The position numbers and the translations under genes are program-made. The notes beneath the pieces are model-generated. The model was given only the letters and a program-made list of their open reading frames with translations, did no database searches and had not been told where the DNA came from. This document shows positions 418 through 2,235 of a stretch of DNA of 33,676 bases, one piece after another. Source of the DNA: Spirochaetota bacterium (GTDB lineage: Bacteria; Spirochaetota; UBA4802; JAGODF01); contig JAGODF010000004.1 of NCBI GenBank assembly GCA_017998375.1, forward strand, positions 1 to 33,676, written 5' to 3'. Position 1 is the stretch's first letter, and the number at the start of each line of letters is the position of its first letter.

Positions 418-2235
418 TTATATCAGACGATTTTCTTTCAAGAATTTATTTGTCGCCTTGCTCGAGATTTCTATTATTTTTTCAATTTCATGCGTGTTCT
501 CGGGAAATTCTAGTTCAAGACGAGTGGCGGGCGTTACATTTGCGGCATCGGATGAGTGCATATTGTCGGAATCCATGAGAAAATTCGCATAAAATGGAAG
601 AAGTTCATTTCCGCCATAAATCGCGCCGGAAGGTTTGATCGATACAAGAATTGCTTGGTCGATATCCATCCTATAGAGTTCCTCGATCCCGCAATGAAAA
701 TGTGGATATCCCGACACATACGACTCTGATCCAATTCGGTGTGGCTCGAACCATGGATATGTGGTCATTGCTGATGTTACAAGGTCTGCAAGACTTCCGG
801 TGCTGAACAATCGACCCGTGTGATCCATCCGGCTGGAGAGCAGTAGCGGTTGGATGCTGAAATATTCAGCTCGTGAATTTCCAAATACATCAGACGCCAT
901 TTTTATTATTTTTCCGTTTTTAAAAAGTGACTCCCTGGGAAATGTTATATCCAACAAGTTGTTCATTTTTTCTTTTGAATAAAAAGCCGTGATGCTTTTA
1001 CGGTATTCATCCGGGTTTTCCGCGTTCAAGAAAAGGGCCAGAGGCAGAAAACCGAAAGATGTTGCATGGTGAACATCATAATGGACACCCGCTTTCATCA
1101 ACTCGAGGTACAGCCCGGCATACGCGATAGAATCATAGCGACCACTTTGCAATACAATTGCTTTTTTTTGAGCGGATATTTCATTCATAATGGCAACGGG
1201 GATGGAATTCTTCATCCGATCTTCGTTTCCTTCGAAACCATTTTCCGGCATGAAATCGATTTTATTCCATGTATAGCCGCCTTCGAAAAATTGTGAATCG
1301 CCATGATAATAATTCAATACGTGATAGGCGCGCTGGCCACCGGTAATCTTATCGTCGAATAGGGAAGATAGCGCCGTTCGATTCTTTGCTTTCTTCAATA
1401 ATCCGATAATGCAGTCAGATTGTTCAAAGATTCGGTCCCGGAATTCTTCATCCGTACCCGACAGGTCGATAACAATATTTTCAAACCTCTTTGTAAGCGC
1501 GAGTAAAAGCGGGGAGAATATCGAAGGACTCGCCTTTACTTTAGCGCCATGAAGAACGTTCAGCAAGGAAAGGGTTTCCGTGATTTTCTCAAGTCCGTCA
1601 CTTATCAATTGATCAGTCGTAACACTTTCGACCTGCTTCTGTGACAGGGGAGGGGTGATTTTTCTGCCGAGGTAATTGAATACCGAACTCCCTTCATAGG
1701 ACATGTCTAGTAGTATCGAATTCCCCGAGTCGGCGAGCGCTGCGGCAAGGGATGCTGCAAAAAGAGTATTACCGGAACCACCTTCGGTACTGAAAACGGT
1801 TATTATTCTTCTGGAACTTGAAAACAACTGCTTCCCGGCCTGTGAAATTTCAAATCCAAGGTTTTTCAAGGCCTTCATATAACCACGGAATGCCTTGTAA
1901 TTCATAAAAAAAAACTTATAGAGATCGTCCGTATTGAAGCTTAAAAGAAGTCCATCCGATATGGCCTTGAGGGTTCCCCTGTTTCGTATTTCCGAAAACG
2001 GGAAATCACCGAAGAATGACCCCGGGGTTAGATAAATGAACTCGTTCTTGCCAAAAACCTCCAGCTCGAAAATACCCTCAAGTATGGTGTTCAATGCGGA
2101 AATTTTTTTTAAGTCGATTGTCTGTCCGCGCTTTACCCTTGAAATACGGCCTTGGGTTGATATCGCATCCCGTTCGCGTTCCGTACAATGTTTTAACAGA
2201 GGATTCGAATTGAATATTCGGGTGTAACTGTTCAT
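418..2235 (-). CDS. cNMP-binding / ParA-like P-loop / patatin-like protein with degenerate active sites
   Basis: A 605-residue protein built like neuropathy-target-esterase relatives. Residues ~10-115 look like a cyclic-nucleotide-binding beta-roll (GxFFGDFPF near 72-80). Residues ~143-275 look like a MinD/ParA-type P-loop domain with the Walker-A region at 150-157 (TEGGSGNT). Residues ~357-540 follow a patatin phospholipase. Both putative active sites are altered. In the P-loop the deviant-Walker lysines are E151 and N156. In the patatin part the GGGxxR oxyanion stretch reads LQSGRYDS (362-369), the nucleophile serine is kept (S393 in ATSFG), and the Asp of the DG[G/A] motif is Ser (S508-G509). 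Enzymatic activity is therefore doubtful. The gene follows the TPR/Mrr-like gene by 12 bases. Loss of catalysis is inferred from motifs only; a sensor or scaffold role is a guess. Confidence 0.8.
   Translation of the reverse strand: MNSYTRIFNSNPLLKHCTERERDAISTQGRISRVKRGQTIDLKKISALNTILEGIFELEVFGKNEFIYLTPGSFFGDFPFSEIRNRGTLKAISDGLLLSFNTDDLYKFFFMNYKAFRGYMKALKNLGFEISQAGKQLFSSSRRIITVFSTEGGSGNTLFAASLAAALADSGNSILLDMSYEGSSVFNYLGRKITPPLSQKQVESVTTDQLISDGLEKITETLSLLNVLHGAKVKASPSIFSPLLLALTKRFENIVIDLSGTDEEFRDRIFEQSDCIIGLLKKAKNRTALSSLFDDKITGGQRAYHVLNYYHGDSQFFEGGYTWNKIDFMPENGFEGNEDRMKNSIPVAIMNEISAQKKAIVLQSGRYDSIAYAGLYLELMKAGVHYDVHHATSFGFLPLALFLNAENPDEYRKSITAFYSKEKMNNLLDITFPRESLFKNGKIIKMASDVFGNSRAEYFSIQPLLLSSRMDHTGRLFSTGSLADLVTSAMTTYPWFEPHRIGSESYVSGYPHFHCGIEELYRMDIDQAILVSIKPSGAIYGGNELLPFYANFLMDSDNMHSSDAANVTPATRLELEFPENTHEIEKIIEISSKATNKFLKENRLI

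Follow-up and report, generated by a model that had tools for sequence, protein, structure and literature searches.

A conserved spirochaete protein with the domain order of neuropathy target esterase and a degraded esterase site

Can a protein keep the whole domain order of neuropathy target esterase (NTE) after losing its chemistry, and what might it then still do? The question is raised by a gene close to one end of a contig of 33,676 bases from a spirochaete metagenome-assembled genome (MAG); the window is this whole contig. The gene (418-2235, minus strand) encodes a protein of 605 aa, here called pseudo-NTE, in which cyclic-nucleotide-binding-like (CNB-like), ParA-like and patatin-like domains were recognized from the open reading frame (ORF), Pfam, AlphaFold2, Foldseek and profile-profile alignment. 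The motifs of its patatin-like domain indicate that esterase activity has almost certainly been lost. We favor, with moderate confidence, the explanation that pseudo-NTE is an ancient pseudo-phospholipase that would serve as a non-hydrolytic adaptor or regulator working with a membrane protein that carries tetratricopeptide repeats (TPR).

Domain architecture and the esterase site

The ORF begins with ATG and runs through 605 codons with no internal stop. The CNB-like domain covers residues ~1-128 (1852-2235, minus strand), the ParA-like P-loop domain ~140-310 and the patatin-like domain ~355-545. In Pfam, the ParA, patatin and cyclic nucleotide (cNMP) domains of the window protein were matched below the curated cut-offs only. 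An AlphaFold2 model built from 41 orthologs had a pLDDT of 88 and a pTM of 0.90, and a Foldseek search with this model against the PDB retrieved the patatin PlpD (TMt 0.71), the CNB domain 1u12 (0.78) and the ParA ATPase 3ea0 (0.64). When the window family was aligned with active CNB-patatin enzymes by hhalign, residues 3-542 were matched profile to profile (E=3.2e-28, probability 99.8%), upholding the NTE-like order of cNMP-binding, ParA-like and patatin domains given in a preliminary description of this DNA. The three-domain match and the degradation of the motifs are real and far beyond chance. The collinear CNB, P-loop-like and patatin domains point to pseudo-NTE being, by descent, an NTE-type CNB-patatin protein. 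The Pfam family NTE_Ploop (PF24179) had no match in the window's genome, and a single genome of the order (G011) matched it.

The catalytic site was compared with 14 reference proteins from this phylum that share the architecture and whose oxyanion (GGGGAR or near), GxSxG and DG motifs are intact. The profile alignment placed the oxyanion GGGGAR on QSGRYD, the nucleophile on S393 and the catalytic Asp on S508. The corresponding stretches of the window protein read VLQSGRYDS at the oxyanion loop, HHATSFG at the nucleophile (elbow ATSFG, residues 391-395; 1051-1065, minus strand) and YVSGY at the DG/A motif (VSG, residues 507-509; 709-717, minus strand). The Ser-Asp dyad is thus broken, with Ser393 present and Ser508 standing at the Asp position of active enzymes; in human NTE the dyad is Ser1014-Asp1134, and the oxyanion hole is formed by Gly986-Gly987-Ala988-Arg989 (PMC10708158). 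Pseudo-NTE is therefore like NTE (PNPLA6-7) and the bacterial CNB-patatin enzymes in its order of CNB, P-loop-like and patatin domains, and unlike them in lacking the Ser-Asp dyad and the GGAR oxyanion loop. It has the patatin fold in common with PlpD, CapV and CapE, all of which have an intact patatin site.

Residues were then counted by column in an alignment of 41 orthologs, the window protein and 40 relatives of the same order. Asp was found at the catalytic position in none of the 41 (Ser in 36, Ala in 4, Asn in 1), and the oxyanion GGG was likewise absent from all 41. No relocated catalytic Asp or oxyanion loop was found in the ortholog columns or the profile alignment. The loss of GGG and the change of the dyad Asp to Ser, both read originally from one sequence, thus lie in the same columns throughout the family, and the degradation stands. 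The retained nucleophile Ser was correctly described for the window protein; however, it is not a family trait, since the position holds Ser in 22 orthologs, Gly in 13, Ala in 4, Cys in 1 and Phe in 1 and at least 7 changes of it are counted along the tree, which makes Ser393 look like a leftover. A still-active hydrolase with a rearranged catalytic site would find its support in S393 and in the same Ser of 21 of the 40 other orthologs; with dyad Asp and GGG missing from every ortholog and Gly, Ala, Cys or Phe replacing Ser in 19 of 41, we hold this to be highly improbable.

Across the orthologs, constraint is seen at Ser508 and at the Gly-Tyr/Phe after it. This constraint and the confidently predicted patatin fold would suit a lipid or acyl-chain sensor, in which the dead patatin pocket would still bind a lysophospholipid or a fatty acid and signal by way of the neighbors. 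However, orthologs differ freely in the oxyanion loop and in the nucleophile elbow, and a retained pocket has no direct support, so such a sensor seems rather unlikely. The possibility that the window's genome also encodes an active paralog of full length was considered and rejected, only standalone patatins and other patatin matches being present there; a full-length active CNB-patatin enzyme was found in 1 of 46 genomes of the order (G011).

Persistence and descent of the family

Orthologs were present in 44 of the 46 genomes of the order, normally in one copy; the two genomes without an ortholog are 66% and 69% complete. The match in G023 is a standalone active patatin. Identity between the window protein and its orthologs was 21-50%, and a single-sequence scan of the genome contigs matched only a near-identical MAG copy. 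Of the base differences from that copy, which is 99.7% identical, 9 are synonymous and 3 nonsynonymous; the differences are few, and the synonymous excess is in the direction of purifying selection and agrees with the frame being intact throughout the order. The gene is thus maintained, as had been proposed from its intact frame. A pseudogene decaying in the window lineage would be consistent with the absence of K156 (see below), one residue more than most orthologs have lost, and is hardly credible given the intact 605-codon frame, the single copy kept order-wide and the synonymous excess. The ortholog of G027 (locus L043, G027:C49, 1-1376) is split over contig ends and may have a frameshift close to its 3' part; assembly error or decay could explain this.

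Other spirochaete families have relatives that are more degraded and lack even a GK motif (loci L066, L067, L069, L070, L072 and L120). On the tree, the proteins of the order and these relatives lie on one side of a branch with the 14 active enzymes on the other (SH-aLRT 99), which fits a single early loss of the esterase site, though the branches are long. Pseudo-NTE would then represent an ancient pseudo-phospholipase branch of the spirochaete CNB / ParA-like / patatin (NTE-type) proteins, with the site probably lost once and early. In family f22, shorter (419-481 aa) and still more degraded proteins occupy the equivalent position next to the TPR gene (L117:4028-5455 and L118:3893-5314, plus strand; L119:2317-3759 and L116:4248-5504, minus strand). 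Genomes G088, G097 and G131 additionally encode a separate active CNB-patatin enzyme. The spirochaete assignment is backed by the flagellar sheath protein FlaA, which was found in the window's genome and in 13 of 14 relatives tested and was absent from all 14 control genomes.

In the literature searched, no paper was found on a patatin pseudoenzyme that is kept throughout a bacterial order. The family indicates that the NTE architecture can persist over hundreds of residues without its chemistry. Non-enzymatic roles have been suggested for the regulatory region of NTE (PMC6995513), and the pseudo-NTE family fits that suggestion.

The CNB-like and ParA-like domains

In the CNB-like domain, FG at residues 75-76 is invariant, whereas the phosphate-binding cassette FGE...R for cNMP is not conserved across the 41 orthologs. 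The cassette Glu at position 77 was present in 7 of 41, the window protein having D77, and the cassette Arg R86 in 19 of 41, the window protein included. In active spirochaete proteins of the NTE type, too, the cassette Arg is missing and His-Ser stands in its stead. For the three putative CNB domains of human NTE, cAMP binding has not been demonstrated (PMC6995513). The cyclic-nucleotide responsiveness first suggested for this protein is therefore unlikely, and a cyclic-nucleotide-responsive scaffold, for which the CNB fold and the placement of D77 and R86 near cassette positions in the window protein would speak, is very improbable as the explanation of the gene.

The degenerate P-loop of the ParA-like domain (STEGGSGNT, residues 149-157; 1765-1791, minus strand) has the motif ITVFSTEGGSGNT where ParA has KGGxGK[ST]. 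E151 and N156 stand at the two Lys positions, and EGGSGNT accordingly departs from the deviant Walker A motif. The degraded ATPase motif reported earlier is thus real in the window protein. However, it does not describe the family: the Walker-A Lys K156 is retained in 34 of 41 orthologs, its loss in the window protein being one of at least 5 independent losses on the tree, and the first, ParA-type Lys (position 151) is the only P-loop Lys lost family-wide. G155, S/T157, D177 and D257 are invariant in all 41. With K156 so widely kept beside these invariant residues, most orthologs probably bind nucleotide.

Compared with ParA/MinD-type (SIMIBI) ATPases, the fold is common and the GK[ST], D177 and D257 positions are kept in most orthologs, whereas the signature Lys is gone family-wide and the Walker-A Lys is gone in the window protein. 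These retained positions and the ParA fold would also suit a ParA/MinD-like nucleotide-driven positioning protein, in which the ParA-like domain does the work, through ATP-dependent dimerization or attachment to a surface, and the other two domains have a structural role. The signature Lys is needed for the sandwich dimer in ParA/MinD, and it is not kept in the family; K156 has been lost repeatedly, in the window as well, and GK is missing altogether from the more degraded relatives. We consider a positioning protein of this kind unlikely.

The TPR neighbor and the proposed adaptor role

Directly upstream of pseudo-NTE lies a gene for a protein of 452 aa (TM-TPR-Mrr; 2248-3606, minus strand) that combines a membrane helix at its N terminus with TPR repeats and a domain of the Mrr nuclease fold. 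The Mrr nuclease motif, D...QxK, is not kept in this domain. The gap between the two genes is 12 nt in the window and ranges from -4 to 49 nt across nearly all loci. In families f22, f34 and f37 the TPR gene likewise stands before the degraded relatives, and it is found phylum-wide, in 104 of 149 genomes at E<=1e-40. No description of spirochaete TPR-Mrr proteins of this kind was found in the literature searched. As a constant, phylum-wide neighbor it offers a genetic handle, since in genetically tractable spirochaetes the TPR gene could be studied beside its alternative neighbor.

With this synteny, pseudo-NTE may have been kept as a non-hydrolytic adaptor or regulator whose partner would be the TPR membrane protein. 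The ParA-like domain still looks nucleotide-binding in most orthologs, which makes a nucleotide-gated adaptor the probable ancestral device; in the window genome, where the Walker-A Lys is also gone, a pure scaffold would be left. Three observations weigh against this adaptor explanation. Orthologs of pseudo-NTE are only 21-50% identical to the window protein, against 57-70% for the TPR neighbor, showing that pseudo-NTE evolves faster. The repeated loss of K156, at least 5 times on the tree, makes nucleotide gating dispensable in some lineages. Finally, an AlphaFold2 prediction of pseudo-NTE and the TPR protein joined end to end (the two genes read in frame across the stop, with the joined translation, 16 joined orthologs and unjoined rows) gave a pTM of 0.60 and no confident interface. 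This value is about that of two independently placed bodies, so a direct complex is unsupported by the joined model.

The genes around the pair recur in relatives. A small coiled-coil gene (3626-3994, minus strand) upstream of the TPR gene is recurrent in the neighborhood, and a small membrane protein, truncated where the contig ends (2-382, minus strand), lies downstream of pseudo-NTE, with a STAS-domain gene next in relatives; within the window's order, a STAS gene is found downstream of pseudo-NTE, a few genes away. In family f30 the TPR gene is followed by a GAF-SpoIIE phosphatase (with HATPase in this family) and a STAS gene, and one genome of family f24 has the same two genes after the TPR gene with one further gene between; these phosphatases lie at L121:3245-5968 (minus strand) and L132:5309-7027 (plus strand). 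Gene order thus suggests a regulatory role for the neighborhood. Pseudo-NTE loci resemble partner-switching modules of SpoIIE/RsbU-type phosphatases and STAS proteins in having the same TPR gene and a nearby STAS gene, whereas pseudo-NTE itself has no homology to the phosphatase and the link is by gene order only. A broader proposal, possible and in our judgment doubtful, is a spirochaete-specific membrane signaling module of dead enzymes, in which the TPR protein with its degraded nuclease domain and the pseudo-phospholipase would feed a STAS partner switch, pseudo-NTE holding in this order the place that the SpoIIE-type phosphatase has next to that TPR gene in other spirochaetes.

Two other roles for the locus were rejected. 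A link of the TPR neighbor to the flagellar collar (FlcA) was not retained, as the similarity lies in the TPR repeats only (36 bits vs a cut-off of 300). A defense system was rejected because PADLOC gave no match for pseudo-NTE, and a weak one for the TPR neighbor, and because the gene is core and order-wide.

In many genomes of the order, the cluster contains farther downstream a second TM-TPR-Mrr paralog of ~520 aa (L086:11826-13388, plus strand; L090:1387-2964, minus strand); its lysine-bearing motif reads WVRR, and it also matches the Pfam inactive restriction-endonuclease family NA-iREase1. Both the window's order and f30 have, close to the STAS gene, a conserved family of proteins of ~750-810 aa without a confident Pfam match (L086:9556-11823, plus strand; L121:86-2527, minus strand). 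A ParB_N-like protein, below the Pfam cut-off, is conserved at the cluster end in the order (L086:13388-14335, plus strand). Elsewhere in the window, the adjacent genes at 6717-8126 and 8133-8900 (minus strand) had weak POTRA and LolA/DUF4292-like matches, and they may belong to an envelope lipoprotein pathway.
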